Shown: one piece after another, positions 13,140 to 64,000 of the stretch
Numbering within the stretch: the stretch's first letter is position 1
Layout: each line of letters starts with the position of its first letter
The notes under the pieces: model-generated
What the model saw: the letters and a program-made list of their open reading frames with translations, nothing else
The model's database searches: none
What the model was told of the DNA's origin: nothing
Source of the DNA: Cristatella mucedo
Lineage: Eukaryota; Bryozoa; Phylactolaemata; Cristatellidae
Direction of reading: 5' to 3'
Length of the DNA stretch: 64,000 nucleotides
NCBI GenBank assembly: GCA_009760855.2
Contig: WPIO01000081.1
Location: 763,001-827,000 of the forward strand
Program-made: the position numbers and the translations under genes

Positions 13140-13900
13140 ACACGTCTGCAGGGTAAGCATTCAGTTTATCGTTCGCTGCCGCAGATTCCGATCATTTAAA
13201 CGATTAATACAACTGGGTATCTTCAGTATAGAAGTGAATAGCCGATTCCATGGTCCCAAATCACTTTCCCTAGATGTTTGGTATCAATGGGGAACATTAA
13301 CAACGGATACTGTGGAACTCCATGGGTGACTGGTCTGAATGATAATACTTGACCCCACACGAAACGGATTGAACACGACCGGACAAGTAAGATTTGAACC
13401 AAGCCAGTGCCTCGTCTGCCAGACCGATCGTCGTTCTCAATTGTTTAAGTAGGGCATCGGGATCAATAGTGTCGAAGGCCACTGATAGATCTAGCAGCGC
13501 TAGGGCAGCGACATTGCCGTCGTCGTTGCAGCATAGGATTTCATTGCTTACATGGAAGAAAACAGTAACCGTGGAGTGCTGCCAGTTGAATCCCGACTGA
13601 ACTTTTGCTGATAACCTATTCGTTTGAATGTGTTTTACAAGCTGAATAGAGACAATCTTTTCGTGAACCTTTGGAAAATTTGAAGAAGGAAAACTGAGCG
13701 ATAGTCTTACTATGCAGGACCTGTGAATCTAATCCGGGCTTTTTAAAGATGGTTGAATGATAGCTAATTTGAAGTATTTTAGAGCAATTCCGTTATCCAA
13801 ATATGCATTAAAAAACCTGAGTTACGTCTTGACTGAGTTTCTCTGCCTGTGAAGACCAGAGAGGGGGTGGTATTGGGCCTTCAGGAGATGAGCTCTTTTT
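13140..13900 (-). mobile_element. LINE-B reverse transcriptase fragment, antisense
   Basis: The minus strand encodes ALLDLSVAFDTIDPDALL, then [20 protein letters not shown] and RVQSVSCG, which closely match LINE-B at 23700-23860. Upstream in the element (13560-13900) is N-terminal reverse transcriptase sequence not present in the copy at 23611. The part past the SVSCG block is eroded. Confidence 0.8.
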
Positions 13901-21475: not shown

Positions 21476-22800
21476 GGGCCTAAAAGTGAATGACAAAACC
21501 TTGAATTAAATACGTTGCTAGATTGTGAGAGCCAGTGTAGGTCGACGAGAAGCGGTGTAATGTGGCAACAGTGACGCTCATGTTTTGCACTAACTATAAG
21601 CGCCTGATTGTACAGGCCAGTAGACTTGCAAGCTGTGTGTTACAGAAGTCAAGACGGGGTGTCGCAAATGTATGGACCAACTTTGATGTGGTATCCCTGT
21701 CAAACCAGGCCCGAATTAAAGCAATGTTATGTTGCTGAAAGTCAGCAGACTTGACTGTAGACCTAATATGGTCATCTATTGAAGGGTCACTTTGGAACAG
21801 GACACCGAGATTTCTTGCAGTTTTATGAGAGTGGAGATGTCCTGCCAGAGCCGATTTTGAGCGTTAGCCTTTCTAATTTCTGAGTCACACTAGGTTAGCC
21901 CATAACTAGTAAGTTGCTTTTATCGTCGTTCAATGTAAAAACAGTTGCTTTCATCGGGTTCGGATGCCAGCAACACATGCAGCAGGGGAGTTGAGACAGT
22001 TTGACGTGTTTGATGGATGGGACGGATCAAAGCATAGGTACAGCTGTGTGTCATCGGCATAGAAGTGAAAGCATATATTGTGCTTGGGGATCGCATCGGC
22101 TAGAGATAGAGCATAAACTGTGAAAAGAACAGAGCCAAGCATAGCATAAACTGTGAAAAGAACAGAACCAAGCACAGATCCCTGAGGTACTCCATATTTC
22201 AGAGGTTCCTCGGATGATTGTTTCCCGTTAACATAAATGCTGTGGAGTCTCCAGCAGAGATAGGACCCGAACCACTGCATTGCAGTGCGAGTGATGCCCA
22301 GGCGAGATGCGAGCCGCTCGAGACGGACTTGGTGATCAATAGCATCAAACGCGGCCACTTTATCAAGCAAAACAAGCAGAGATATTATTCTTTAGTCGGG
22401 ATTCCTGAGAAGTCGTTACACACCCGAACCAATGGTGACTCGGTGGAGTGCTTAGCTCTACAGCCTGATTGGAACTTTCGGGATAGATTTGAAATTTAAA
22501 TCTAAGAGTTTGGCTGTTCTGACGCTACTTGTTTCAGTGTCTTTTCGTTTAATTGGAACGGCAGTAGGAAGACTGGGTGGAGGTTTCTTAAGTTGTCTTG
22601 GTCAAGTGTTGATTTCTTAGTTAGTGCCCTTGCGACGGCCTTTTTTGAAAAGTACAGGGCCAATACATAAGGCTAAGGACATATTTATTATGCTAGTTAT
22701 GAATGGCAGGGGCAGATCTGTGCATCGTTGAAGTAGGACAGTGAGAGTTGGGTCTAGAGGGCTAGTAGTTTTCTTTGACTAGGAAATGAATTCATGATGA
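21476..22800 (-). mobile_element. LINE-A reverse transcriptase copy, antisense
   Basis: The minus strand encodes [39 protein letters not shown] and [14 protein letters not shown]. Upstream is the N-terminal polymerase region (22440-22800) and downstream the C-terminal part to about 21480. A local tandem duplication of about 39 bp (22103-22180, repeating LGSVLFTVYA) and several stops show decay. It lacks the endonuclease and the 3' tail. Confidence 0.85.
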
Positions 22801-23164: not shown

Positions 23165-23610
23165 CGTTCGATTCGGAGTCCGGCGAGCTCGTCTCGTGGC
23201 TTCGGATTTTACGGTGCTGCTTCGTAATGGAACTTTGAGGTTAACGGAGCTGGCTCGTTGGCTCTGAACGAAACCAAGTTAGTACGATGTACTCGGGCTT
23301 CTTACTTTGCCCGCGCTGTGTGATTCAATGGCGACGATCGTGGCCCGATTTAAGTGGCTTTCCTATGATTGCCAACATACTGGTCACGGGATATTCTCTT
23401 TACGCTTGCTTCGATGACAAAGTTGCGATCGTCGGAGCCTCGTTTTAGTGGCTCTCAAATATTCGTCGGTATAGTGTTCGCGGAGTCCTTTTTTTACTCA
23501 TGCTAAGATGATTGAGTCGCGATCGGAGTCGAAGCTGATTGAGTGGCTCTTGTGCATTGTTTGTATGTTGTATGCGCGAGTGAAGCCTTTCCTTTCCCGA
23601 GCCGGGGCAG
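23165..23610. repeat. Degenerate tandem repeat, period about 95 bp
   Basis: The words GTGGCTTTC, GTGGCTCTC and GTGGCTCTT occur at about 23354, 23449 and 23543, with a weaker one near 23259, so spacing is 94-95 bp. Each is preceded by GCGATCGT-GGAGCC-like sequence. Units differ from one another at many positions. The array ends where LINE-B coding sequence starts at about 23611. Confidence 0.6.
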
Positions 23611-25046
23611 TTGCGTGTTCTGGCCGAAGCCGAGCTTGATATCGCGTTTGATATCGCTACAGCCGTGTTGAGCTGTGGTGGCAACGACATCGGGAATGTC
23701 ACTGCCTTAGCTCTGCTAGATCTGTCTGCTGCCTTCGACACCATTGATCACGAAGTTCTGCTTGAACGATTGAGAACAACGATCGGTCTGGCAGACGAAG
23801 CACTGGCGTGGTTTAAATCATACTTGTCTGATCGTGTTCAATCTGTGTCGTGTGGGGGTCACGTCTCAGACATGAGAAGGGTCACCTGTGGAGTCCCTCA
23901 AGGGTCTGTACTTGGTCCTTTGCTGTTCTCTATTTATACACAACCTCTGGGAAAAGTGATTAAGGCCCATGGAATAAAATATCACTTCTATGCTGACGAT
24001 ACTCAGTTGTATTTGTCATTTAAACCGTCGGAATCTGCTGCAACAACTGAGAAACTGAATGCTTGCCTTGCCGATATTCGATCCTGGATGTCGGAAAACT
24101 TCCTGAAATTAAATGACGATAAAACCGAACTTCTTCTCATAGGACACCCTAAGCGTGTAGCTGGATTAAAAGGCTTTGCTGTTCTAATAGGTGATGCTAT
24201 TGTGCGACCTTCACCACGTGCTCGTAATCTAGGTGTCGTGTTCGACAGCTGCCTCAATTTCAAAAGCTTCATTCAGAAGACTGCCTCTACAGCTAGCCAT
24301 CACATCCGATCCCTATCCAAGATTAGAAGCTGTCTCCCACAGTGGCTTGTAAAAAATTTAACTAGCTCTTTAGTTCTGTCTTGGCTTGATTATTGTAATT
24401 CCCTTTTGGCTGGGCTACCAAAGAAAGCTATTATACCACTACAGCGGTCTATGAATATGGCTGCAAGGCTAGTCTTCAAGTCCCAGCGGCTTGAGCACGT
24501 GTCACCTTTGCTGGAAGAGCTAGGATGGTTGCCGGTTGAGCAAAGGATACAGAGCAAAGTTCTTACGCTGACCCACAAGGCCCGCCACGGCTTGGCTCCT
24601 TCATACCTAGCTGAACTGCTGCATCTGTTTCAGCCTGTTTGCTCCGTCAGGTCCTGTGTGGACAATAAATTAGCTGTCCCATTCCTCCGCTTAAAGACAG
24701 TTGGCGACAGAAGCTTTAGCTCTGCATGTCCTAGACTGTGGAACTCGCTTCCATAATTCTTACGCAACGACATCTACTCTCCAACTGCCGACTATGGCAC
24801 ATCTTTTTCAGCGGTCCTGAACTGCTACTTCTATGCTACTCACTACGTCAACTGTTCTCCTAACTCTGCTATGCTTCCCACTTTCTCTTTGTTGCGTGAG
24901 ACGAAGTCTGTTGGGTACCGAATGCGTACCGAAAGCCGCTTAGGCTGTGAGTGCGCTATACAAAACTCTCCTGCGTAACACCCACATGGTCTTTATGACT
25001 TTGTGGAGTTACTGACGGAGATACGTTACATTTCATTACATAGGCC
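23611..25046 (+). mobile_element. LINE-B copy 1, reverse transcriptase domain nearly intact
   Basis: An open frame of 381 codons runs from 23611 to 24756. It shows [20 protein letters not shown] (motif A), [14 protein letters not shown] (motif B), [14 protein letters not shown] (motif C with catalytic YADD), [12 protein letters not shown] (motif D) and [11 protein letters not shown] (motif E), then a C-terminal region ending in WNSLP. A TAA follows where related copies have a glutamine codon, and the same frame stays recognisable to a CAIQNSPA-like end near 24978. The 3' end is TTACATTTCATTACAT-like at about 25025-25046. Endonuclease and ORF1 are absent. This is a 5'-truncated CR1/L2-like element and probably the youngest LINE here. 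Confidence 0.9.
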
Positions 25047-42976: not shown

Positions 42977-43322
42977 ATGGCATTCGCTTACAGCCAAAGA
43001 GAGGCTGAGCCGCCGGCGGACGAGGACGACATGCCGGCGACGGAGCGCGAGCTCGCCGAGGACGCTCAGTGGAAGGTCATTCAGAAGAACACGTTCACGA
43101 GATGGACGAACGAGCATCTGAAGAAGGCGCAAAAGAATCTCGCCGACCTCGAGTTCGACCTGACCGACGGACTGCGGCTGATCGCCCTGGTCGAGGTGCT
43201 ATCTGGCAAGAAGTTCAAGCACATCAACAAGCGGCCGTCGTTCCGGCACCAGAAGCTCGAGAACGTGTCGTTGGCGCTTAAATTCCTCGAGGAAGATGAA
43301 GGAATCAAGATCGTTAACATCG
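42977..43322 (+). CDS. FLN: Filamin, exon 1 (start, acidic leader, most of CH1)
   Basis: Filamin crosslinks actin filaments and anchors membrane and signalling proteins to the cortex. This exon gives residues 1-115: an acidic leader with [17 protein letters not shown], the hallmark filamin start, then CH1 ([48 protein letters not shown], ending IVNI). ATG 42977 is the first in-frame ATG after a TGA at 42830, with G at -3 and +4, so it is the likely start. A second ATG at residue 19 fits some family members. The donor GTAAGC follows at 43323, phase 1. A splice acceptor at 42937 would make an upstream exon possible. I am very sure of the family. The paralogue or species name cannot be decided, but most invertebrates have a single conventional filamin. 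Confidence 0.95.
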
Positions 43323-47192
<3,870 letters not shown>

Positions 47193-47459
47193 ACAGCACC
47201 GACATCGTGGACAGCAAGCTGAAGCTGATCCTCGGTCTGATATGGACGCTCATTCTCCACTACTCCATCTCGATGCCCATGTGGGAGGGCGAGGAGGACC
47301 AGCCTCAGCGCGAGGCCGGCGCCAAGGAGGGCCCGACGCCCAAGCAGCGCCTGCTCATCTGGGTGCAGAACAAGCTGCCCGACCTGCCCGTCAGCAACTT
47401 CACCACCGACTGGAACGACGGCCGCGCCATCGGTGCCCTGGTCGACGCCGTCGGACCGG
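47193..47459 (+). CDS. FLN: Filamin, exon 2 (end of CH1, start of CH2)
   Basis: This exon supplies residues 116-204. It starts after GTTTGCAG with phase 1: the G from exon 1 plus AC gives Asp. It encodes [20 protein letters not shown], the conserved end of CH1, then [10 protein letters not shown], an acidic linker ([16 protein letters not shown]), and CH2 from [15 protein letters not shown] to [15 protein letters not shown]. The two CH domains together bind F-actin. The donor is GTAAGG at 47460. The linker between CH1 and CH2 is of ordinary filamin length. Confidence 0.97.
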
Positions 47460-47647
47460 GTAAGGCGCGCGCCGCCGCTGCCGCCTGCAGCCCTGCTAGC
47501 CGCCGCCTCATCCACTGCTGCCCGTTGGGCCGACCGACGCGGCCGGTCAGCCAGAGCGCCACGCGGTCACAGCGCACGCATCGGCGGTGGCGCAGGGGCG
47601 GGCCGAGCCGAGCGCTCACCCGCTTTTTTCCTTTGCCTCCGCTGCAG

Positions 47648-47745
47648 GCCTCTGCCCCGACTGGCAGGACTGGGATCCCAGCCAGGCGAAGCGCAACGCC
47701 ACGGAGGCGATGGACCTTGCTGAGAAGTGGCTGGACGTTCCTCAG
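47648..47745 (+). CDS. FLN: Filamin, exon 3 (middle of CH2)
   Basis: Residues 205-237: [20 protein letters not shown], then [12 protein letters not shown], the canonical filamin CH2 centre. The acceptor CGCTGCAG is preceded by a pyrimidine-rich tract and the donor GTGAGG follows at 47746. It enters in phase 1 and leaves in phase 0. The intron before it is only 188 bp. Confidence 0.97.
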
Positions 47746-50943
<3,198 letters not shown>

Positions 50944-51091
50944 CTGATTCGCCCGGAGGAGATGGTGAACCCCAAGGTGGACGAGCTGAGCATGATGACT
51001 TACCTGTCCCAGTTCCCTAACGCCAAGCTGAGGACCGATGCGCCCCTCCGGCCTCGCACCAACGCCGCTCGCGTCCGTGCCTACGGACCAG
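50944..51091 (+). CDS. FLN: Filamin, exon 4 (end of CH2, first residues of Ig repeat 1)
   Basis: Residues 238-286, encoding [20 protein letters not shown] and SQFPNAKL, the conserved end of CH2, then [18 protein letters not shown], the linker into Ig-like repeat 1. The acceptor is TGTTGTAG at 50943 and the donor GTGAGC at 51092. The exon leaves in phase 1, with G as the first base of a glycine codon. This is the constant exon before the duplicated exon pair and splices in frame to either alternative. Confidence 0.97.
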
Positions 51092-51323
51092 GTGAGCGAA
51101 GCGCCGCTGCTGCAGCCAGTAGCGACCGGCAACCCATGCTGCGACGCCGCCGTTAGCCCCCCAAGTCCTGGGCCGGATGAGGCCCCCCTCCGGAGTGGTT
51201 GTGAGTCATCGGTCCTTGGCCGACTGCTCTGGCGCTGTGGCCTCCCCCTCGGCCTGCCTGCCCCTTCAGTTGTCGGCGCCGTCGGCACATTGTCACTCGG
51301 GCACACCCTCGCGATCTGCTCAG

Positions 51324-51442
51324 GCCTGGAGTCGACTGGCAACTGCAAGGGCAGGCCAGCCAATTTCAAAGTCGAGACTTTCGCTGGTGGTAAGGGTGAG
51401 CTGAAGGTGATCGTGCTGAATCCTCGAGGCCAGCCGGAGCCC
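51324..51442 (+). CDS. FLN: Filamin, exon 5a (first half of Ig repeat 1, alternative A)
   Basis: 119 nt, phase 1 in and phase 0 out. It encodes residues 287-326: GLESTGNCKGRPANFKVETF then AGGKGELKVIVLNPRGQPEP, the first strands of a filamin Ig-like repeat. The acceptor is CTGCTCAG and the donor GTAAGT, which is strong. A (TG)n tract begins about 5 bp into the following intron, with a TGCATG at +36. It has the same size, phases and fold position as exon 5b and is 52% identical to it (21 of 40). The two cannot be joined in frame. Confidence 0.95.
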
Positions 51443-51446
51443 GTAA

Positions 51447-51448
51447 GT

Positions 51449-51479
<31 letters not shown>

Positions 51480-51480
51480 C
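51447..51480 (+). repeat. (TG)n tract just after exon 5a donor
   Basis: Nearly uninterrupted TG dinucleotide starting 5 bp after the splice donor. UG-rich RNA is bound by CELF- and TDP-43-type splicing factors in animals. Confidence 0.9.
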
Positions 51481-51483
51481 ATG
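51478..51483 (+). promoter_or_regulatory. UGCAUG motif, candidate RBFOX site (+36 of exon 5a)
   Basis: TGCATG directly at the end of the TG tract. RBFOX proteins bind UGCAUG and, when it lies downstream of an exon, usually favour its inclusion. Confidence 0.5.
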
Positions 51484-51684
51484 TGCCTGTGCGCATGGGT
51501 GCGCAAGCACGTTGGTGTGGGGCAGCATTCGTGCAGGGCCCGTGAGCACGAGCTGTAGCGCACACACGCATGGGTTGTGAAGCTGCGGCTGGCGCTGCTG
51601 CCGCGTCTCTGTGTGTGCCTCCTAGTATCTTGTGCACTAGCTTGCTGTGAGCGTGAGTGTGATGGACTGGTCGCCCGACGGCAC

Positions 51685-51690
51685 TGCATG
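51685..51690 (+). promoter_or_regulatory. UGCAUG motif between exons 5a and 5b
   Basis: Second TGCATG of the cluster, downstream of 5a and upstream of 5b. Confidence 0.4.
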
Positions 51691-51865
51691 GCACTTGCCA
51701 TCATACCTGTCGCTGGCCCGAGGCGTTCGTCCCTAGCCGAAACCGCTCTCACTCGCTCGGAGGCAGTTGCTGCACTGGCGCTCTCCGCCCGGTGGCTCTC
51801 AGTGTGCAGTTATTGTAGTTGCCCTAGTCGAGCTCTTGCCGACTCGACCACACTTTTGTTGTGCG

Positions 51866-51871
51866 TGCATG
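51866..51871 (+). promoter_or_regulatory. UGCAUG motif upstream of exon 5b
   Basis: Third TGCATG of the cluster, 224 bp before the 5b acceptor boundary. Upstream RBFOX sites usually repress the following exon. Confidence 0.4.
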
Positions 51872-52094
51872 CGTGTCTCACGTGTCTCTCCGTGTGTACG
51901 TGGTGCCGTATGACTAGGTCCCGAGTGCTGACCGGCTCTTCCGGTATGATCCCACCTTTCTCCCCCAACCGTTTTCCGTGCCTTTATTGTGCTCACCTAT
52001 GTTCGGACATCGCTCGGCATGCTGCCTGCCACTGCCGTGATCTCGTGTGCGCACGCGCGTGTGTGACCGCGCCGTGTGCTGTGCGACTCGCCAG

Positions 52095-52213
52095 GTCTAG
52101 AGCAGACGGGCAACAGCATGGGCGCGCCCTCGAAATTCACCATCGAAACGTTCAGCGCCGGGCGCGGCGAGCCCGTGGTTCGCGTGCTGAACGCGAGCAA
52201 CGTGGAAGAGCCC
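52095..52213 (+). CDS. FLN: Filamin, exon 5b (first half of Ig repeat 1, alternative B)
   Basis: 119 nt, phase 1 in and phase 0 out, exactly as exon 5a. It encodes GLEQTGNSMGAPSKFTIETF then SAGRGEPVVRVLNASNVEEP. The acceptor is ACTCGCCAG, with a weak pyrimidine tract, and the donor GTGAGT. Conserved family positions (GLE-TGN, FT-ET, GRGE) are intact with no stop, so it does not look like a pseudo-exon. The changes are spread over the repeat. Joined after 5a it reads GTC TAG, a stop at 52098-52100. Confidence 0.93.
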
Positions 52214-52435
52214 GTGAGTAGCGCGGCTGCGGCGGCCGAGCGAGTGCGGGGGAAAGCCTGCCTCCGCAAACGCTCGGCCATCGTTGCCCTGCGCAAGTCG
52301 AGAGAGCTTGGATCGCTGACTCAGCTTGTGTCGCACGCTGCTCGCGACCCGGCGGCCGCACTGATGACCATTTGGGCCGCCGAACCCGCCCGCATGGCAG
52401 AGCTCTTGCGCGCGCGCGCGTGTGTGTGTGTGAGC

Positions 52436-52441
52436 TGCATG
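52436..52441 (+). promoter_or_regulatory. UGCAUG motif downstream of exon 5b
   Basis: TGCATG 223 nt after the 5b donor. It follows a (CG)n-(TG)n run (about 52408-52432), a layout like that after exon 5a. Confidence 0.45.
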
Positions 52442-52625
52442 CTTGCTCTGCCGGCGCCTCGGCGACTTGACTGACCTCTGCCGGCGCTGGCCGATGCCGC
52501 ATGCTCGGCTGCGGGGTTGCGCTGTGGTTCCGCAGCAGCAGCAGCAGACCTGTGCTCGTGGGCCTGAGAGTGCGCCGGGCGCAGAGTGCGCAATCGTCAG
52601 CTCACTTCCTTCGCGCCTCCTACAG

Positions 52626-52703
52626 TGCCAGGTCGTCTTCAACAACGACCGCAACCTCACCTACTCGTGCCAGTATCTGCCCACCATGGAAGGCGAATAC
52701 ACG
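52626..52703 (+). CDS. FLN: Filamin, exon 6 (middle of Ig repeat 1)
   Basis: Residues 327-352: CQVVFNNDRNLTYSCQYLPT then MEGEYT. The NND-N-T-S pattern and the YxPxxxGxY motif are diagnostic of filamin repeats. The acceptor is CTCCTACAG (ends 52625) and the donor GTGAGC. Both phases are 0, so it fits after either 5a or 5b. An alternative acceptor six bases on (CCAG, 52631) would remove Cys-Gln. Confidence 0.95.
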
Positions 52704-53444
52704 GTGAGCCTGCCGCGGCTGAGCAGCCAGCTGCCATCTTCACTACTCGCCCCTCCTCTCCTTCTTCGCTCCCTGTCTCTCGGCTGAGCAGGACCAGTCA
52801 GCAGAGTCGGTCGCCAGAAAAGTTGAGACCAAAGAGACTTCGTCCCCTTTTCGAGCCGTCGAAGGGCTTCGTTCATAGGCCGCCTCTCTTCATCTCGTGA
52901 ACCTGCTGCCGGGGGTTGGGGATGGGTCTTTTTGATCTATTCAGCCTTGGCTTGTTGGAGCAACAGCCTAGTAAGAACATAATGTGTTTTCTCTGTCCGT
53001 ACCAACTTGTGCCCTGGCTCAGGTTCATGGTTAGAGTTCGGTATTGGGCAATAAGCTGTGACGTTGGTGCCATTTCACAACGCCGAATGGCGTTTATTTC
53101 TTGACTCCTTGATAAGTTGGTGCCATTTTACAACACCGAATGGCGTTTATTTCTTGACTCCTTGATAGTTGGATTGGTGTGGCAGTGGCACTGTGCACTC
53201 TGTAGAGCTGCAGTCTGTCAGCTTAATCACACCGAGTAGGCAGGCTGTGGGCGCATGAGCTAGCGTAAAAGAGCAGCTGGGTTTCCTGTTCTCATCTGAT
53301 GCATTCCAAAGGCCTCGAATCGGTGCACCGTGCCCGATAGCAGCGCTCCCAGCTGGCTCGAGCGCCAGCCAATGGCACCTGGATCTCAAATTTGGAATCG
53401 TTTGACGTTTTTATTTGCAGGAAGCTTCTCGTATCGATGTTGCA

Positions 53445-53590
53445 GGCCGCTCTAATTTGGCCCAGGGGGTAAGGTGCTCGCCTTTGACAATGTGGGTGGT
53501 TGGCTTGAGCCCTCTGGCCCATGTGAGCGCCTTGATAGAGAGAGATTAGAGTTCTCTTAGGGCGCTATACAAAATAATTGTTACAAACAT
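53445..53590 (+). mobile_element. SINE-2 copy in filamin intron 6
   Basis: An A-box-like AATTTGGCCCAGGGGGTAAG, GGTTGGCTTGAGCCCTCTG (B-box region) and the LINE-A-like tail TAGAGTTCTCTTAGGGCGCT followed by ATACAAAATAATTG. Same strand as the gene. Confidence 0.65.
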
Positions 53591-53851
53591 ATCATTATCC
53601 AGCGACGTGTTTCACATGCTGCTGGGTTTTCTTTTGTCACGAGTAGCTGTTGCATGCCGAGTCTGTGGGCAATGGTCATACCGCCGCCTCGTAGCCAACT
53701 TCCCAGTCTTATCACGAGATACTGCGCGATGCATGCCCTAACTCGATGCAGTTCGCACTGCTCAAGTGTCCCCTCCCCTACCCCTCCAGCAGTCGCAGCA
53801 GCAGGCGAGCAATTTGCTTGCTCCGAATCTTTCAAGCAAGCTAAAAGTGCC

Positions 53852-53889
53852 AGTCCTAGGTCCTCCGGTTGGCCGGAGGACCTAGGACT
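53852..53889. repeat. Perfect 17-bp palindrome with 4-nt loop
   Basis: AGTCCTAGGTCCTCCGG, loop TTGG, exact reverse complement. Intron 6 of filamin. Confidence 0.95.
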
Positions 53890-55208
53890 CCCGGTGGCTT
53901 CCCATGTGCTTGCTCAGATGCAGATGCTGCGCGTTGCTTTGCTGGTGAAAAGCAGCTTCCTCCCCCAACCCAGAGGTCCAACAGGGGGGGGGGAGAGAGA
54001 GAGAGGGGCTGCGACCTTGCTGTCCAGTGTATCTGCCCTGGAGGCAGAGAGGGAGAGACAGAGGCTCAGGTCTGTCCACTGAGAGGCATCTTGCTGGCAG
54101 CAGGCAGACAGCCCTGCCCCGCCCCTCGGTGAGCTCGATGTCAAGAGTGTATCGTAGTGGTAAAGTCTCTGTCGGTCAATGGGGCTGGCTGTTCGTACCT
54201 TCCGGCATTCCCTTTCGGGCAGCAGATTTGCTCGTTCCAGACGTCTGGCCTGGCAGCAGCTCATCACGATGTGCCTGCCGGCAAGCTCTCGAAAAAATGA
54301 GCGGCAGTAGCAATTAATTAGCCGGATTTTGGGAACCAGCGTCCACCTTCGTTCGGCCGGCCGCCCGGCCAGGCACCTACACCGTAGGGGGATGTTGTCT
54401 GATGGGCAGTGAGCTGTAACTGCCAGACTGCTCTATCCTTGGTGCACTCGCCAGGGTGGTGCGGTCAAGCAGCAAGAATGCCCGGACATGTCGAATTTAG
54501 GCTCGCTTCTGCCCGGCCGATAAATGCCGTGTTGCATCATCTGGTGGGGCTGGACCCAATGTAAGTTTGCTGCTCCGTGCCCGAAAGCAGCGGAAGACCG
54601 ACAATAACACGTCGCAGCTTTGGAACTGGAGGAGCTGCTGAGTGGCCGAGGCCGGTCCTTCCTCGCCTCGCCGGCGGCGCTGCCGTCAAATCGACGTGCC
54701 TCAACCGCTGCTGGCAGTTCGAATTACCGTCGCGAAAACCGAGCTACCCGTGAGAGGGTCGTATCGATGCCCCTATCAACAGGGCACACGGCTCGCCCCT
54801 GCGCAGCAGTGCGCACACTCACTCACGGGACAGATAGCCGTCCCTCGCCGTACAGATAGCCACTGCGTGCCTGGCTGTCAGAACCACCAACGCCGACGTC
54901 CTCTGCTTTGTCGAGCCTCGAATTAGCAACGGCGACTGGTTTGGCACGTGTCTCGTGTGAAGGGAGGCGGTGATTACTTCCTCCTGACAGCTTTCCCCGG
55001 CGTAGCCCCAGCCTGTGCATACAGGACATTTTCCTCGGTTAGTCTTTATCTTTTAAATTCTTGACGGTACACAATGGTCCGGGTGCCGAAGCTTTGCACT
55101 GGTGTGAAAAGCCGGCTGCTACTGCCCTGCTAGGCTTTGCACTGTGAAGAAAGGCAACCGTGTAAAAATGTGCCGTGTGGCCGTTGATGCTGCGCTGAGC
55201 TCACAGCT

Positions 55209-55227
55209 GAGAGAGAGACAGACAGAC

Positions 55228-55258
<31 letters not shown>

Positions 55259-55402
55259 GATAGAGAGAGAGACAGAGAGAGACAGAGAGACACAGAGAGA
55301 GAGACACAGAGAGACAGGGAGAGAGAAATCGAGAGAGGGGAGTGAGAGAGAAATCGAGAGAGACAGAGAAGAGAGAGAGAGAGACACAGAGAGAGAGAGA
55401 GC
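55209..55402. repeat. GAGA/GACA microsatellite in intron 6
   Basis: Mixed GA and GACA repeats with a few GGGG and AAATC interruptions. Confidence 0.9.
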
Positions 55403-56026
55403 CCAGGCTACTTGCCTGTGGTCGGCTGGTCTCATTATAGCAACGGTCAGGATTGTTATGAGGATAGCAGCTGCTGGAGTATCCAGTAGCTTGCTAATAA
55501 AACTTCTAGGGCTATTCAGGCACGATTTAATTGCCTGCTTAGCCATGCTAGGGAGCCCTGCCCACCGGATCGGCTGACAGTTTTATATTGTGGGACAGTT
55601 TTTGTCTCCCCCCACTCAATCTGGCTAGATTTGGCTGTAATCTGGCCTGACCAGGTCACCGAAAGATCTGCCCAAGTGTGCTTTTTTCAGCTAGCTTTGG
55701 TTTAGCAAGCATGCTTTGTGTTCTATCTCCACTGTGGCCATATTGCACGACCCGACCAGCCACCACAGTTGGTCATCTCAAAGCTTAGCACGTGGGCCAG
55801 CCGTCCACTTACACGGGGACGACAATTTAAAGCCGTAAATACACTGATGGATGGCCAAACTGATCTGGGTGTTTTGGGGACTGTCTCATGCCATGGCTGG
55901 CTAATGCTGCTGCAGAATTGTGTGGACCTGCCTTGCCCATGTCACAGATTGCCCATACTGCCCATGTTTCAGATCCACGGCAAACGCGACCACCAGCCTT
56001 GCTAATCGTGCTGTCTGCTCTCTTAG

Positions 56027-56189
56027 GTCATAATCCAGTTTGCCGGTAAAGAGATCCCCAAGAGTCCATTCAAGGTGAAGGTTGAAGGTGCTGCTGGCGA
56101 TGCGACCAAGGTGCGGGCTGCTGGCCCAGGATTGGAACCCTCTGGCGTGCAGAATGAGAAGAAGACGTTCTTCGAAGTTTATGTGGAGG
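56027..56189 (+). CDS. FLN: Filamin, exon 7 (end of Ig repeat 1, start of Ig repeat 2)
   Basis: Residues 353-406: VIIQFAGKEIPKSPFKVKVE, the FAG-xIPxSPF end signature of repeat 1, then GAAGDATKVRAAGPGLEPSG and QNEKKTFFEVYVEG starting repeat 2. The acceptor is CTCTCTTAG and the donor GTAAGC at 56190, phase 0 in and phase 1 out. If both 5a and 5b were skipped, translation would stop at a TAA at 56047-56049. Confidence 0.97.
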
Positions 56190-57139
56190 GTAAGCTGCTT
56201 GCAGAGTTTGGGTCTACGTGCGCACATGCTGCCGCCGCCGCGTTGGCAGCCTGTTAGGAATACCGCTGCTTGACTCACTTCGAGACGCCTCGGCTTCTCG
56301 AAGCAAAAACTTACCTTCGGCACGGTGCCTGTTGAAAAAAATATTAAAATATAGGGCGCCGGATCGGCGACCGAAGATGCGTTTCTTTTTTGCAGTATTG
56401 GCAGCAGAGTCTGGCATCGACAGCAGTCACGTGTTTTCTTTCTAGCAAGTTAAAAGTGACTAGAAAGAGATTGAATGATGGTAGATAGTTTTAGGAATGT
56501 CTGGTTATTGTTAGGGTTATATTAAAACCTTTCCAATAGACATCTTAAGCGCGGTGCCCGATAAGGCTCCGGCATTTTACCCCTCTTGGTCGTTGTAACT
56601 GAAAACTGAACTCGAGAGATATTGGTGGAGCTGTGATGATGGCGCATTAGGCACAAACCGGACGCTCTTCACGTTCTCGTTCAAATCCTGCATGCTTGGG
56701 CAAAAATCCTTTATTCACGCTGGAAACAGTAGTGAAAGCCGTGACGTCTCCTCTGCCCCTATGCAAAAGGAGGCCATTAAATCGGCTGGTATTTTATTTT
56801 ATTTTTTATAGCAAGTGTCATCCTCTCACCCACTTCTCAGGAAAGGGTCCTCGTGTCCCAATCTCAATCATGGATTTCTTTTTTTATTCAGCTAAGAGCC
56901 GTCATCTTGCTCTGCTCGCTGCCTGACAGCAAATCGACGACTTTCTCTGTCTCCTCTGACGTTCCAACTTGAATGTCGGTGTCGATGCAATGCTCGACCG
57001 AGAGAACCGTAGCCTCAGCGATTTCAACGGCCTTCCTCGTCGGCGAATCGCCAGCTTCCTATAGCCGAAGGCAGGCTTCAGTAGCCGTTGTTGTCTGCGC
57101 AGATCAACGTAAGCGCTAGTGCTTTGCGCCTCGTTGCAG
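56190..57139 (+). other. Filamin intron 7 (950 bp)
   Basis: It contains a LINE-A-like AGTGACTAGAAAGAGATTGA scrap at about 56454-56473 and a SINE-1 copy. No exon is recognised. Confidence 0.8.
56630..56815 (+). mobile_element. SINE-1 copy in filamin intron 7
   Basis: TGATGATGGCGCATTAGGCA (A-box region), CGTTCAAATCCTGCATGC (B-box), AAAAATCCTTTATTC, TCCTCTGCCCCTATGCAAAA and GGAGGCCATTAAATCGGCTG, then a TTTTATTTTATT end. Moderately diverged. Confidence 0.65.
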
Positions 57140-57340
57140 GAGCCGGCGTCGGCAATGTTGAGGTCGTGATAGTGGACCCGCAGGGTCGCAAGGATACCAC
57201 TAAGCCTCGAGTCGCAAAGACCACAGAGACCACTTTCTACGTGGAGTACCTGCCGAAGGACGTGGGCCGATACACCGTGCACATTTACTTTGCCGGCAAG
57301 GAGATACCCGCCAGCCCATTCACCGTCGGCGTCGCTCAGC
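57140..57340 (+). CDS. FLN: Filamin, exon 8 (most of Ig repeat 2)
   Basis: Residues 407-473: AGVGNVEVVIVDPQGRKDTT, KPRVAKTTETTFYVEYLPKD and VGRYTVHIYFAGKEIPASPF, then TVGVAQ. The YxPxxxGxYTVHI and GKEIPASPF signatures are complete. The acceptor is TCGTTGCAG, the donor GTAAGC at 57341, phase 1 both sides. Confidence 0.97.
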
Positions 57341-57611
57341 GTAAGCACGCACCCCCCCTGCTGCTGCTGCCACCGCCGGTGGCAGCTCTCACGGTGGTGC
57401 GGGGCCCTGTCACTGCTGCTGCCTGAGGCGTGGTGTATTCGATTGTGTGCCCGCTGATTCGCTGCTGCTGCCGCCACCGCATCTCTCCGCTTGCCCGCTT
57501 TGTGCATGCGGCATGCTCGATCGCACTTCGGGAAGGCCCGGCTCGTGCCGCGCTGCTGCGGCTGTCGCCGTTGCCTCTGCAGCAGTCGCAGCTGTCCATG
57601 TAAATTCGCAG

Positions 57612-57749
57612 CCGTCGACTCGAAGAAGTGCTATGCAACCGGCCGCGGCGTGCAGTCCAAGGGCGTGCGTGTCAAGGACATTGCCGACTTCAAAGTGCAC
57701 ACGGAGGGTGCCGGCGACGGGGAGCTGAAAGGATCGCTGGTGCTGCCGG
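57612..57749 (+). CDS. FLN: Filamin, exon 9 (first half of Ig repeat 3)
   Basis: Residues 474-519: PVDSKKCYATGRGVQSKGVR, VKDIADFKVHTEGAGDGELK and GSLVLPG. The RGVQ-KGVRVK-ADFKV series is characteristic of filamin repeat 3. The acceptor is AATTCGCAG and the donor GTAGGC at 57750, slightly weak. Phase 1 both sides. Confidence 0.96.
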
Positions 57750-57942
57750 GTAGGCGCTGCCTCGAGGTCGACCCGCAGATCGCGTGGGAGGGCCCGAAGC
57801 GGCACAGCAGCAGCAGCCGCCGCCACCGCAGCGGGTCGTCACCTGCGGCCGGATGCAGGCACGGCAGCGCTAGCTCTTCGTGCACGGGGATGAGTTCGCT
57901 CAATGCCGTAGCCGCTCAGAAAACGCCGAGGGACCGTTCTAG

Positions 57943-58079
57943 GTGGCAAAGAGGAGCCGATACGCTTCAAATCGGTCGCTCCGAACGTGTACGAGGCCGC
58001 GTACGTGCCTACTGTTGCTGGCGAGTACACGCTGAACGTGACCTACGGTGGAGGCCATATCACCAAGAGCCCTTTCAAG
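57943..58079 (+). CDS. FLN: Filamin, exon 10 (second half of Ig repeat 3)
   Basis: Residues 520-565: GKEEPIRFKSVAPNVYEAAY, VPTVAGEYTLNVTYGGGHIT and KSPFK. The acceptor is CGTTCTAG, the donor GTAACC at 58080, out in phase 0. The typical YVPTVAGEY turn and the SPF end are present. Confidence 0.96.
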
Positions 58080-58107
58080 GTAACCGAGGCAGCCAGTTAG
58101 GGTGCAC

Positions 58108-58450
58108 TGTAGTGAATGTTATGTAATGTATCTCTGTCTGTAACTCCGCAAAGCCGCAAAGACTGCATGGGTGTTAACGCATGAGAGTTTTGTATAGTGC
58201 ACTCACAGCCTAAGCAGCTTTCGGTACGCATTCGGTAGCCAACAGACTTAGTCTCACGCAACAAAGAGAAAGTGGGAAGCATAGCAGAGTCAGGGGAGCA
58301 GTTGAGGTAGTGAGCAGCATAGAAGTAGCAGTTCAAGACGGCTGGAAAGGATGTGCCACAGTCGGCAGCAGGAGAGTAGTTGTCGTTGCGTAAGAATCGT
58401 GAAAGCGAGCTCCAAGGTTTCTCCAAGTGCATATCGGGGACGTGCAAACG
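58108..58450 (-). mobile_element. LINE-B 3' end, antisense, in filamin intron 10
   Basis: The plus strand starts TGTTATGTAATGTATCTCTG (reversed tail). The minus strand then encodes LSRFLRNDNYSPAADCGTSF and AVLNCYFYAAHYLNCSPDSA, matching LINE-B at 24750-24870. It is young-looking, with an open frame of 116 codons. Confidence 0.9.
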
Positions 58451-60014
58451 AACTCCGGAGCTCAGTTGCTGGGGCTGATCCCTGGCTGTGGCTGTGGCGA
58501 ACTCTCGGACTCTTACGCCTCCTCCAGCGCTCGCTCCGGCGTCGAATCGGCTGTTGGAAGTTGGTTTTCCGCCCGTAAATTAGCCCTGTAAGCCGACCCC
58601 CAACTTCGTTATCGGAAGTAGGAGTTTTCTAGCCTGTAACATTGACATCCTAACTCGACGGCAGGGACTTGGCCAGAAAAAGCCAGAAAATTCTCAAATC
58701 GTGACCTCCGGAGCCAGTCCGCCATTGGCAGGTGGCACAGCCCCGGGGAGGGAGGGGGCAGCTGGCCTGGACCCTGGCGGTCCTCTTGCTGACTCACCTC
58801 CCAGCCGGGTTGACAGATATGCTTATTCTTGCTCCACATGCTGTATAACGCCGCCACACACATGTGGGGCAACCCAAAGGCACGCGTTCGGCAAAATTCC
58901 ACAGCCGCACTGCAATGCCACCTCGACTGTGAACGTGGCAGAAAAGTTGCGTTATCGCTCTTATAAAATTGCATCATTACTGTATAGCATTTAGTTTTAG
59001 TAGGTATTTATTTGCGAGTATCTATTACATGTTAAATTTGCTGCTACATGCTTGAGTGCCGACCACTTTACTTGGTCTGCTGGGCATTATTCGCGACACC
59101 TATTCGATCTGTTGCCATCGTCCTGAACCGGGTCGCCTGCTTACCTGCCCTCAGCTGCTATTCTCGTGACATGCAGGCTCCTGTCTGGGATTGCTCATCA
59201 GCCTTCATTGACCTTCAAAGGAGCAATAGAGCCAGAGCCCCGCATGCAGAGCCTCTCCTTCCTGTCTTTTCGCGGAAAGTCTCGTGCGTTCCTGCTGCCG
59301 CTGCTGCTGCTCTTGGCTTGCTCGCTGCCTGTTCCAAGGACCTCGATTCTCTTTCTGCACAAAGCCTACCACCGAATTAAAGTTTGTGTCGCGTTGAAGT
59401 TTTGTATTTCTAGCGTTAAGGCAAGACTGCTTGCCAGTTGGGAGGGGGACCTTGCAGGAAAACCTTGTCTCAGGAATCGAGCCTGCCGCTGCCGGTTTTC
59501 TGGTTCTGAGCTGAGTTTTCCGGTTCTTTGGAAGCGTGTGTATTGGGACGCCATCCCAGGAAAGCCTTAGCCGTGCCAAGCTATGTAATTGTCTATTCCG
59601 AGGTCGCAGTACAGGCAGCAGAGTGGAGCGAAATTCGAGCAATACGCGCTATCGAGCTCCGACCAATCATGCCCATGGGTATTGACGGACATATGCACCT
59701 CCACTAATATGGCCGACGGGATATGCCGGAGAGCTTCCAGGCTAAAATTCTCTGAGCCATGAGGGAGGCGCTCGAACATTTGCACGATGCATAACACTCA
59801 TAGAGCTCTCAAAGTGTATACAATAGCTGTACCTAACTTCTTAATCGATTACAAATAGGCAAACTTCGGTTCCTTATGCATCTCCTGCTCCTGGCTGAGC
59901 ATCAAAGCTTCAGTTACCGTGTCGTGCTTTGTAGATTTCACAGCAGTCGAGACCTTTTAGAAAGATCTCTGCTGGGATTGGTTGGGATTTGGTTGCTTCT
60001 CAGTCGCTGGTTAT

Positions 60015-60115
60015 AAAAAAAATATAATAAGCACTAACCTCAGAAGTTAATCTCTTTCTGGGCACTTTACATATGCTGTAAAGGAAGCACGAGCAACTGG
60101 TTAGTTTAGCTTAGG
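60015..60115 (-). mobile_element. LINE-A tail, antisense, in filamin intron 10
   Basis: ATAATAAGCACTAACCTCAG, then AAGTTAATCTCTTTCTGGGC and ACTTTACATATGCTGTAAAG resemble the reversed LINE-A end. Confidence 0.6.
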
Positions 60116-60369
60116 CCTAGAAAGAGTTTATTGGTAGCCCTCTTAGATGCTTGTAAAACCTCGTACTTCAATAACTCTCTAGACAAACAATGGCAGCCCC
60201 AAACCAACCTGTAGAAACTGACTCAGCTTTCACACTCAATGTGCACAGTACCAGCCAGCGTGTCGAGCCCCCATCACAAAAGCCACCCACCCCGAGAAGC
60301 TAATCAAAGCTGCATGCTGCAGGCGCTGCCCGAAAAGCATCTAGGTCCTCTCTGTCACCGTGTTAGCCA

Positions 60370-60560
60370 TTTCCGAGAACCTTTAGTAACCACTATGTTG
60401 GCACTGGCATTTCATTACCCAGGTCGCAGGTTCGGCAGCAGCGGGCAATCCCCTGTTGCTCACTGCAAGCGATGGTGATGGACATGGTGGGTCTTCTGCT
60501 GCTATATAAATAAAGCTCTTCGATCAGCTGACCTTAACTTTTTCTTTTATTACACGGGGA
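60370..60560 (+). mobile_element. SINE-1 copy in filamin intron 10
   Basis: CAGGTCGCAGGTTCGGCAGC (B-box region), GGGCAATCCCCTGTTGCTCA, CTGCAAGCGATGGTGATGG, GGTCTTCTGCTGCTATATAA and TCGATCAGCTGACC, then TTTTATT. Diverged head. Confidence 0.65.
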
Positions 60561-60948
60561 GGGGGCTGATAGAATGTACCTGGTGGCTTGTGCCTGGCTG
60601 GGTCGCTTGCCAGTCGACTCACGAGGTGGAGGACTAATGCTCCTCAGCCCCGCTCAGAGTGTGCTGCCAGCAGTGACATTTAAAGGCTCACCTCCGAAAT
60701 GCAGCAATCTGCAAATCACTCCTCATACTAGAGCAATTTAGGATGCTGCTGGGAGGGCCTCCTTTTACAGCACGCATTAAGGGGTAATGTCAAGAAAGTA
60801 CTTATAAAATTGGTCTGGCAATCGAATATTGGTTTAGGGTACCGTTCAAAAGGCAAGCCTGTTGGAAATGGTATCAGAAGTTTTGGTGACTTCAACATAA
60901 AAGAAAAAGTGATTATGCAAACCACGGCTGACCCGAAAAAGTGGAAGC

Positions 60949-60950
<2 letters not shown>

Positions 60951-61016
<66 letters not shown>
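60951..61016. repeat. (AC)n microsatellite in filamin intron 10
   Basis: About 33 AC units. Confidence 0.97.
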
Positions 61017-61019
<3 letters not shown>

Positions 61020-61044
61020 TTAAAGAAAATTACCAATCTCTGCA

Positions 61045-61340
61045 TAGTATTAATAATACATCTGAATAGAACCATCAGAGAACTGAATCTCTCTCTCTCT
61101 CTTTCTCTCTAAGGACTTTACAGATGCTGCATAGTGTAACAATGTACATGCATACGAAGGACGAATCACAAAGATCCACCAAATGCGGTGTAAAAAGGTG
61201 CGCTCAAGTTTTTTTTAAATGTAGACATGTCGTGACGTGCGTTGGGAGTGAGTTCCAGGCTCTGGGATAATAGGAACTATTCGTATGTGACTTGTACCCC
61301 AACTTGTTGAACCTTGGTAAATTGACGTACATGTGTGAAG
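61045..61340 (-). mobile_element. LINE-A 3' end, antisense, in filamin intron 10
   Basis: TTAATAATACATCTGAATAG, then CATCAGAGAACTGAATCTCT, AAGGACTTTACAGATGCTGC and GGGAGTGAGTTCCAGGCTCT follow the reversed LINE-A 3' region, with a shortened middle. Confidence 0.75.
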
Positions 61341-62654
61341 CCTGTTAAGGTGCATGCCTGACTTGTAAACAGCATATTTGACATATGCTATCCAATAGAT
61401 GGCCTAGAGGGGTTTTAATCAGGCGAGTGATTGGGTCAACCCGAGCCGGTGACAGAAGACTCGTAAAACAGTTTTCTGACCCAGTTCGGAATAGTTTTTG
61501 GGTCAATATCATGCTGAAACCGTTATTTATCTTCCAGATAACTCACGGCAGACATATTTTCCCATGTTCCAGGCACACGTCGGCATGCAAATTCTGGTTC
61601 ATGCTGCCAGCAATTAAATGCACCGACCAGATGCCGGCACCGGAAACCCCAATTTTGCCCCTGCCTTGCCTAGATAGGCTCGGCTGGCTGATGCAGACTG
61701 CATTTCTCAATCACAACGAGGCGATATTTGCTCTTGTCACGCTAGCAGGCCTGGCACCAGTTTTTAACCATTCAGTTGGCCCTGAGCCCTTGGCTCTGAT
61801 CGACTCAGATCTCAGGTCTCTGACGGCTCAGTGCTCGGTCTCCTCTCTTCATCCCCTGTCGTCGAAAGATGTTCTGGCGAGTCGACAGTTCACCGTTTGC
61901 CAGCCAGCTGCCCCCACTTTCGGTTTTTTCTGCTTCCCGTGAGAACAGCGTTATGAAGAAGAGATGACTTCTTGCATCTTAAACTCTCGGCTTGCTAAAT
62001 GCACGTACTACATTGAATGGCCTTTTCATAATTTCGATGTAAACTTGTTAGCACACGCAGATCGCCCAAGCTCTCGGCAGTTGAGGGATTTTTCTCAGAC
62101 GCTTCCCCTCAGCTGGATATTATTGCTCTTGCCTGCACTACATCTGCAGGCTGCCGGGGCACCAGTTTTTCGCCATCTCTCCTGCCTACTTGGGCTCCTC
62201 GCTAAAGCGTCCCCCTTTGCTTCCTCGGCGGCCGATTTGCTCGCAAAGAGCACGCTGCAGCTGCTTCGAAGCAGTCATGTTCTCTTCAACTTCGCTCTCC
62301 CTGTCTGTCAGTTTCTGGTTTGCCTCGACCACGGAAAGTCTCTCGGCCCTTCGCTCTGCTCTGGGCCGAGAGTGAGTCGTGCTGCCGTTTTTGCCGAGCG
62401 TGCCTGCCTGCCTGCCTGCCTGCACGGTGCCGTCCCTTGTCGAGCCTGCTATTTTCGCGAGAAAATAGCGAGATTCTCAGCTGCTGCCGTTGTGGATCCA
62501 CCACATCACGTGGCAATCAATCATTTCGCGAGCTCTGTGGCTCTGATGCTCCATCCATCGATCACGATGTCATGGCGCTCGATCCGTCGAGGCTGCAGCC
62601 GCGCGCTCTCGGGCGATTCATTGAACGCATTTCTTGCCTCTCTGCTTTCGACAG

Positions 62655-62790
62655 ATCAATATCGGAAAGCAAATTGTCAGCAATATTCGGGCCTACGGTC
62701 CGGGTCTTGAGGGAGGCATCGCCAACAAACCGGCCGACTTCGTTGTTGAAACGAACGGAGAAACGGGTTCCCTTGGCTTTGCAGTTGAAG
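62655..62790 (+). CDS. FLN: Filamin, exon 11 (first half of Ig repeat 4)
   Basis: Residues 566-610: [40 protein letters not shown] and GFAVEG. It begins in phase 0 after a good pyrimidine tract (CTTGCCTCTCTGCTTTCGAC then AG), so KSPFK joins INIG. The donor GTTAGC at 62791 is weaker than consensus. Out in phase 1. Confidence 0.93.
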
Positions 62791-63032
62791 GTTAGCACAG
62801 CGAAGGCTGCTGCTGCCCGGTGTTTGGCTCTGTCGCCGCCAGTCGTTTCAGTCAGTCGGCGGCCACGTTTGCTGCATGTGGCCTGCAGCAATTACGCCTG
62901 GACACCCTCGAGTCGCCGCCTTGTTTGGCCGAACTGTGGGTGTGACGTGAGCCTAGGCAGCTTTACGAAGTTGTCCCCCCCTCCAGTCCTCACGGTGGCT
63001 CGATGCACAAATTTTGTTTCCGCCTTTTCAAG

Positions 63033-63211
63033 GACCGTCGCAGGCAAAGATTGACTGCAAGGACAACGGCGACGGATCGGCGAACGTCTCCTATCTGCCC
63101 ACGGTGCCTGGCGAGTATGCCGTTCACGTCCTGTGCAACAACGAGGACATTCCCAACTCGCCGTACATAGCTCAAATAGGCCCCGCCACGAAGGACTTCT
63201 TCCCCGAGAAG
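63033..63211 (+). CDS. FLN: Filamin, exon 12 (second half of Ig repeat 4)
   Basis: Residues 611-670: [40 protein letters not shown] and [19 protein letters not shown]. This is the most conserved stretch of the window relative to filamins in general. The acceptor is CCTTTTCAAG. The donor GTGCTG at 63212 departs from consensus at +3 to +6, yet register with the next exon (PEK then VIASGPG) supports it. Reading through gives VLRS and a TGA at 63224, so retention would truncate the protein after repeat 4. Confidence 0.95.
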
Positions 63212-63561
63212 GTGCTGCGCAGCTGACGCTTTGTCGCCGCTACGCCACGCTGGCGCGGCTCGCCGGCATCATCTTGCCGCGCGAACCTGGCGGCGCGGCC
63301 GCGCTTGCCGCTTCACGCTGCTGCTGCAGTGCTGAGGCATCTCTCTCAGTTTTTTTCGCTCATTTATTCGCCCAAGTTTATTCTAGCGAGCGTGCCCGCT
63401 GTGTCATTTCCCCCCCTTTTTTCCATCGTGCCTATTTAATTCAGCCAGTCTCGTGCGTGCATTTCCGTCGGCCGCAGCCCAACGTCGCGCGCCGGCTGTA
63501 GACGCGTCAGGTGCACAGTTCGGCGAGCTTGAAGTGCTCGACATTTCCCCACATTGTGCAG

Positions 63562-63819
63562 GTTATCGCGAGCGGTCCTGGCCTGCAGCCCAAAGGGCCA
63601 GTGGTAGGCAAGCCGGCCCAGTTCACGATCGACACCGCTTCAGCCGGCCTCGCGCCTCTGCGCGTGGTCGGCCAGGATGCCGAGGGCCAGCCCATCGACG
63701 TGCAGCTGAAAGACAACAAGGACGGCACGTACACGTGCCAGTACACACCCAAGACCCCGACCAAGCACACGATATTTGTCACCTACGGCGGAGTCTGCGT
63801 GCCGAACAGCCCGTTCAGG
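63562..63819 (+). CDS. FLN: Filamin, exon 13 (Ig repeat 5)
   Basis: Residues 671-756, the whole repeat 5 in one exon: VIASGPGLQPKGPVVGKPAQ, FTIDTASAGLAPLRVVGQDA, EGQPIDVQLKDNKDGTYTCQ, YTPKTPTKHTIFVTYGGVCV and PNSPFR. The GKPAQFTID start, the DNKDGTYTCQY core and the NSPFR end are all present. The acceptor is ATTGTGCAG and the donor GTAAGC at 63820; phase 0 both sides. Confidence 0.97.
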
Positions 63820-63979
63820 GTAAGCCCTCGGATTGCGGTTGTTGGAGCTGCGCCTGCGCACGTGCGGCCGTTCTGCGGTCGCTTCCGGAGTGCTGATTTG
63901 CTTCCGGTCACGCTTCGCGCCTTCTGCTCGCGCCATGGCCAGCAGCGCTGGCTCTAGCACGAGCGCCTCGCATTCGCAG

Positions 63980-64000
63980 GTCGGAATCATCGAGGCGAGC
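63980..64000 (+). CDS. FLN: Filamin, exon 14 (start only, cut by window end)
   Basis: Seven codons (VGIIEAS) after CATTCGCAG in phase 0, where the family has VxVG and the linker into repeat 6. The exon continues outside the window. In known filamins the rod has about 20-24 repeats, so most of the gene probably lies further right. Confidence 0.75.

Follow-up and report, generated by a model that had tools for sequence, protein, structure and literature searches.

On its forward strand, the window, a stretch of 64,000 nucleotides from a single contig (C667, 763001-827000), includes the 5' portion of a filamin gene (42977..63819). For this portion a model of 13 successive exon positions was built, with GT-AG borders (Table 1); its joined frame remains open over 756 aa with either of two versions, exons 5a and 5b, at one of these positions. 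Exon E4 was located through a tblastn match to FLNA. The predicted protein matches PF00307 (CH) in two stretches (E 1.1e-41) and PF00630 (Filamin; E 1.9e-20), so that an N-terminal pair of CH domains is followed by filamin Ig repeats, the arrangement by which membership of the filamins was judged, and the repeats run on past the end of the window. The linker and repeat 1 furthermore align with the solved FLNB structure 4b7l (E 7.9e-39), the alignment to E4 beginning at residue 215. By its gene content, the sequence is that of an animal. A search of positions 50000-64000 against Rfam returned no match.

Table 1. Features of the filamin gene, of the exon pair and its surrounding introns, and of a further exon pair present in this gene and in its paralog (positions on the scale of the window unless marked C614)
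Feature	Position	Strand	Description	Basis
E1	42977-43322	+		gene model
E2	47193-47459	+		gene model
E3	47648-47745	+		gene model
E4	50944..51091	+	constitutive; end of CH2 of the actin-binding domain and start of repeat 1; phase 1 out	tblastn, gene model
5a	51324..51442	+	first half of repeat 1, version A, GLESTGNCKGRPANFKVETFAGGKGELKVIVLNPRGQPEP; net charge +2	gene model, homology, codon signal
(GT)n tract	51447..51479	+	right behind the 5a donor; UG-rich in RNA	repeat scan
TGCATG	51478..51483	+	RBFOX-type motif; starts 36 nt behind exon 5a	motif scan
TGCATG	51685-51690	+	RBFOX-type motif; 5a-5b intron	motif scan
TGCATG	51866-51871	+	RBFOX-type motif; 5a-5b intron	motif scan
AG exclusion zone	51926..52092	+	167 nt, 5' of the 5b acceptor	AG scan
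CTGAC	51928..51932	+	sole yUrAy match in the zone, at its 5' end; A 164 nt before 5b	consensus scan
Pyrimidine-rich stretch	51933..51992	+	73% C/T over 60 nt, behind the predicted branch point	composition
5b	52095..52213	+	first half of repeat 1, version B, GLEQTGNSMGAPSKFTIETFSAGRGEPVVRVLNASNVEEP; net charge -2	gene model, homology, codon signal
TGCATG	52436..52441	+	RBFOX-type motif; intron behind 5b	motif scan
E6	52626..52703	+	constitutive; CQVVFNNDRNLTYSCQYLPTMEGEYT; phase 0-0	gene model
E7	56027..56189	+	constitutive; end of repeat 1 and start of repeat 2	gene model
E8	57140-57340	+		gene model
E9	57612-57749	+		gene model
E10	57943-58079	+		gene model
E11	62655-62790	+		gene model
E12	63033-63211	+		gene model
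E13	63562-63819	+		gene model
X1	84779-84961		same contig, beyond the window; 183 nt, phase 1-1	profile scan
X2	85388-85561		same contig, beyond the window; 174 nt, phase 1-1	profile scan
Y1 (paralog)	C614:124392-124219	-	174 nt, phase 1-1	profile scan
Y2 (paralog)	C614:123963-123787	-	177 nt, phase 1-1	profile scan

Exons 5a and 5b are separated by an intron of 652 nt. The initial annotation had described them as equally long and equally phased versions of the same 40 residues, and this description was reproduced in every detail: each exon is 119 nt long with AG/GT borders, enters in phase 1 and leaves in phase 0, and the two share 21 of 40 residues and 72 of 119 nucleotides. Both E4-5a-E6-E7 and E4-5b-E6-E7 form open frames. 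When the two exons are joined, E4-5a-5b reads GTC TAG, with the stop at 52098-52100, and when both are skipped, E4-E6-E7 runs into TAA at 56047-56049 in E7; as 119 is not divisible by three, the frame itself could act as a backstop against either outcome. The two are thus neighbouring internal exons of similar length and identical frame, homologous, bordered by GT-AG and without in-frame stops, which are the properties given for mutually exclusive tandem exons in WebScipio-type searches (PMC5740500).

A second filamin gene is present in the same genome (C614:175195-109393, minus strand) and extends from the exons of the actin-binding domain through the late repeats. This paralog, the only relative examined, has a single exon for the first half of repeat 1 (C614 154527-154409), which is likewise 119 nt long with AG/GT borders and the same frame; tblastn with all three versions as queries revealed no second copy of the repeat-1 exon, stop-ridden or otherwise, in the corresponding 2255-nt interval. 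Its 40 residues are identical to those of 5a and 5b at 19 and 21 positions, respectively. Fifteen residues are common to all three versions, while six are common to 5a and 5b only, four to 5a and the paralog only, and six to 5b and the paralog only; the synonymous divergence of the paralog is saturated, and these site counts favour neither a duplication of the exon before the split of the genes nor one after it. Scans of viral and prokaryote contigs with exon 4 gave 15 and 402 pattern matches, respectively, none of which was confirmed as a relative. The comparison with the paralog also qualifies the frame trap, which the initial annotation had treated as a signature of mutually exclusive splicing: the trap is real, but the length of 119 nt and the phases are inherited, being the same in the single exon of the paralog, and the trap is therefore what an ordinary duplication of a non-symmetric exon produces rather than a specially evolved device.

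Several measures were used to assess whether both copies are under coding constraint. In BLOSUM62 comparisons, the two peptides reach 104 with one another and 101 and 103 with the repeat-1 exon of the paralog, but no more than 69 with six other repeats of the window gene. Codon log-odds, trained on the other exons of the gene, are 10.3 for 5a and 15.6 for 5b, while 3000 random 120-mers drawn from four introns of this gene score no higher than 3.8. Based on these scores, both exons are of the repeat-1 type to a degree beyond chance. The divergence between them (dN 0.42, dS 1.2; NG86) is distributed over the codon positions such that 26, 27 and 20 of 40 sites are identical at positions 1, 2 and 3, respectively. 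One copy was also left to drift neutrally in a simulation. At the two drift levels on either side of the third-position identity actually seen, 0 of 3000 runs retained 21 or more identical residues, and at three lower drift levels 0.7%, 9% and 65% of runs did so. Finally, together with the constitutive exons, 5a and 5b complete a PF00630 repeat of 75.2 and 74.8 bits, respectively, whereas the peptide lacking the 40 residues reaches 41.3 bits. Both exons consequently look coding, and the drift simulation, the codon log-odds and the full Pfam repeat obtained with either exon make a long-dead copy unlikely as far as sequence can tell, while a recent disuse of one of them is possible.

The acceptor of exon 5b stands out in its upstream sequence. 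The AG exclusion zone of 167 nt in front of it compares with zones of 10-56 nt at the other 12 acceptors of the model, and of 21-63 nt at the acceptors of the paralog and of the second exon pair described below, where no long zone is present. In dinucleotide shuffles of the intron (n=5000), a zone at least as long was found at the acceptor in 0.12% of cases and a run of that length anywhere in 1.7%. The weight of the zone is lessened by the scarcity of A in this intron (12%). Across the gene region, 8 of 3793 AG-to-AG runs span at least 150 nt, one of which is a masked stretch. The pyrimidine content of the 30 nt directly before the 5b acceptor is 57%, within a range of 47-83% for the 13 acceptors of the model. 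With a zone of at least 100 nt, a branch-point match near the 5' end of the zone and a pyrimidine tract behind that match, exon 5b has the make-up of an exon with a distant branch point, the branch point itself being predicted. Human exons with AG zones of at least 100 nt have been reported to be alternatively spliced more often, and every experimentally established distant-branch-point exon known at that time was alternatively spliced (PMC1431707).

The predicted branch point lies approximately 490 nt behind the 5a donor, and steric exclusion between the two exons is for this reason not expected. Incompatibility of U2- and U12-type splice sites was also rejected, since the donors of 5a and 5b are GTAAGT and GTGAGT, respectively, neither of the U12 type and both presumably U2-type by their consensus. 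Blocking of the steric kind has been defined by a branch point less than 50 nt from the upstream donor (PMC5740500), a spacing far exceeded in the 652-nt intron found here.

A profile scan of the window gene and its paralog, which covered the unmasked part of the gene, identified a second tandem pair in the same gene past the end of the window. Its exons, X1 and X2, encode two versions of the second half of one repeat, which we take to resemble FLNA repeat 15 (66% and 60% to the sequence of that repeat, the repeat number being our own label), and the paralog contains an equivalent pair, Y1 and Y2. Judged by eye, the end motifs match X1 with Y1 and X2 with Y2, which suggests that this pair predates the duplication of the filamin gene; the overall identities (X1-X2 62%, X1-Y1 55%, X2-Y2 53%) do not follow this pairing and do not settle the matter. 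Given that the lengths are divisible by three and the phases symmetric, the frame does not enforce a choice between X1 and X2. Either/or use is nevertheless likely on structural grounds, since a repeat built from both exons would contain its second half twice.

Short motifs associated with splicing regulation are concentrated around the 5a/5b pair. In the three introns surrounding it, GCATG occurs 9 times compared to 3.0 expected (reached in 0 of 300 shuffles), TGCATG 4 times compared to 1.3 (14 of 300 shuffles) and TGTGTG 18 times compared to 4.3, with 14 of the copies in the 5a-5b intron, though these tests were post hoc and covered six motif patterns. PTB, QKI and MBNL patterns showed no enrichment in the same introns. 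All nine GCATG copies are positioned between or behind the two exons, and the intron ahead of 5a has none. The (GT)n tract that directly follows the 5a donor is presumably a site of the CELF/TDP-43 type. TGCATG is also found close to the second pair, starting 13 and 16 nt ahead of X1 and X2 (84766 and 85372), respectively. Taken together, the introns between duplicated exons (5a-5b, X1-X2 and Y1-Y2) hold 11 GCATG in 1333 nt, or 8.3 per kb, compared to 18 in 17160 nt, or 1.05 per kb, in the ten introns of the window not adjoining the pair (binomial P 3e-6). This amounts to 8 times the density in those ten introns and 4 times the average of the gene, which at 1.92 per kb lies above the ten-intron background. 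Local clusters occur elsewhere as well: two small introns reach 4 and 7 GCATG per kb through one and two sites, respectively, 17 of 848 windows of 1296 nt contain at least nine copies, and among the windows listed, some with at least eight also start at approximately 68.3-68.7 kb, where the profile scan shows no exon pair.

These observations support the proposal of the initial annotation that 5a and 5b are spliced in a mutually exclusive manner: what would be expected of such a pair at the level of sequence was found, and the AG zone, the motif clusters and the second exon pair add to it. The exons are probably a true and functional mutually exclusive pair in filamin repeat 1, and we assign a probability of roughly 0.84 to the reading in which the choice between them is made via the distant branch point and the RBFOX- and UG-type sites, with the frame shift as a backstop. 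In this reading, 5a and 5b would go back to a single exon, encoding the first half of repeat 1, that was duplicated in tandem, and one of the two would be retained in each mature mRNA. Splicing of 5b from a branch point approximately 164 nt upstream, across the AG-free stretch, would make it a repressible exon, and the UGCAUG (RBFOX-type) and UG-rich (CELF-type) sites between the exons would decide which of the two is used. RBFOX sites positioned behind an exon favour its inclusion, while sites ahead of an exon hold it back. The sites behind 5a may thus favour 5a, and those ahead of 5b repress 5b. Transcripts with both exons or with neither would shift frame and be lost by nonsense-mediated decay.

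A possible objection is that regular use is confined to one exon, the other being a duplicate that is intact but seldom spliced in, either as a relic or as a poison exon whose addition reduces filamin levels via the frame shift. Addition of 5b to 5a does lead to an immediate stop, as with a poison exon, the paralog manages with a single copy, and the pyrimidine content before the 5b acceptor is weak. Against this, both copies have kept an open frame, splice sites, a codon signal and a Filamin repeat of full strength, and a poison exon has no need for 39 codons of fitting repeat-1 protein, framed such that they work only without 5a. This explanation is accordingly regarded as unlikely. It is considerably more improbable that the two exons belong to different promoters and different classes of transcripts, for instance a long form containing 5a and a shorter one that starts near 5b from an internal promoter. 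Filamins of C. elegans do use alternative starts along with alternative splicing (PMC3143143), but 5b possesses an acceptor and the phase of E4, which it continues without a break, and a first exon requires neither.

Competing RNA structures of the kind known from Dscam, with a docking site and selectors, would be a way to enforce the choice within the mutually exclusive reading rather than an alternative to it, and a role for them appears improbable. The strongest intron pairing (51743-51782 with 52214-52253) spans the 5b donor and reaches -51.0 kcal/mol; the margin over the best of 12 shuffles (-48.5 kcal/mol) is slim, and of the other three pairings scanned, two fall inside their null ranges and one, within the 5a-5b intron, has no null. 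An assembly artefact or a collapse of paralogs, finally, is scarcely credible. The genome does contain a second filamin gene, yet 5a and 5b lie within one unbroken gene, neither of them is the exon of the paralog, and their flanks are unlike: comparison of the intron sequences on both sides of the exons revealed nothing in common beyond GT repeats and short matches, as a result of which the original boundaries of the duplication are no longer visible. The evidence as a whole thus favours the mutually exclusive pair.

By analogy with filamin Ig structures, the 40 residues encoded by 5a or 5b would make up strands A to C of repeat 1. If so, the switch would leave the fold of the repeat intact and alter its surface, including the expected strand C of the partner groove, and a change from 5a to 5b would reverse the net charge next to the actin-binding domain, from +2 to -2. 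In other repeats, strand C forms the partner groove together with strand D, as with integrin, which binds the CD face of repeat 21 in FLNA (PMC3143143), and LARP4 is described to bind the cleft of the C and D strands. Of the effects envisaged by the initial annotation, a changed contact to partners or actin next to the actin-binding domain would therefore be expected, but a change in folding would not, as the Filamin scores with the two exons are alike.

Filamins have a central role in cross-linking actin and in sensing force, which raises the question of how a single gene can serve tissues that differ in stiffness; alpha-actinin, too, is an actin cross-linker. The genes for the latter (Actn, atn-1) likewise contain duplicated, exchangeable exons (PMC9741552), though in another protein family and another domain. 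Closer in terms of regulation are the tandem exons of unc-32 (7a/7b) and egl-15 (5A/5B) in C. elegans, which have UGCAUG nearby and are controlled by RBFOX proteins with CELF or SUP-12; in unc-32, the switch depends on a CELF-bound UG-rich element between the exons and UGCAUG behind them (PMC3585155). These systems concern other proteins, and factor binding and its effect, demonstrated there, are predicted for 5a and 5b from the motifs. In pairs of the alpha-tropomyosin or OGDH type, the branch point of the second exon similarly lies a long way upstream (PMC1431707, PMC7969005), but there exclusion is enforced by the closeness of the branch point to the upstream donor, in contrast to the predicted distance for 5a and 5b. 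Among filamins, the nearest case is exon 30 of FLNB, where rod splicing is controlled by RBFOX1 with QKI (PMC6103745), a role that RBFOX may share at 5a/5b; that exon is a skipped cassette encoding hinge 1, and it involves neither repeat 1 nor an exchange of two exons.

As in the initial annotation, which knew of no such case at this position, no mutually exclusive exons in filamins were found described in the titles and opening parts of abstracts of the filamin splicing literature, a scope that does not establish their absence from print. The term 'FLN' is absent from the main text of a human survey (PMC5740500), both 'filamin' and 'FLN' are absent from a human tandem-exon survey (PMC9741552), and for the C. 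elegans filamins, alternative exons and starts are described in a text whose main part lacks the term 'mutually exclusive' (PMC3143143). The 5a/5b pair is thus probably a new case, while mutually exclusive tandem exons as such are already known. If the pair functions as proposed, an exchangeable half-domain behind the actin-binding domain would provide a natural minimal pair of proteins differing in one surface, the role of repeat 1 would become testable, and RBFOX-linked splicing of filamins, as for human FLNB exon 30, would extend to a pair of duplicated exons in a further animal.

A more tentative idea, which we consider somewhat doubtful, is that of a scaffold with two switches. The either/or exon in repeat 1 would exchange a surface by the actin-binding domain, the older pair in the repeat-15-like domain would exchange a whole partner groove, and with the same RBFOX-type motif dense at both, one tissue program could tune both ends of the first rod.

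Two minor observations were made elsewhere in the window. A 53-bp unit is repeated in approximately two copies with 94% match at 53063-53172, in the intron 3' of E6, and, among the open frames listed, LINE-type reverse transcriptase-like ones were recognised by eye at 13300-13728, 17937-18566, 21954-22391 (minus) and 23584-24753 (plus).
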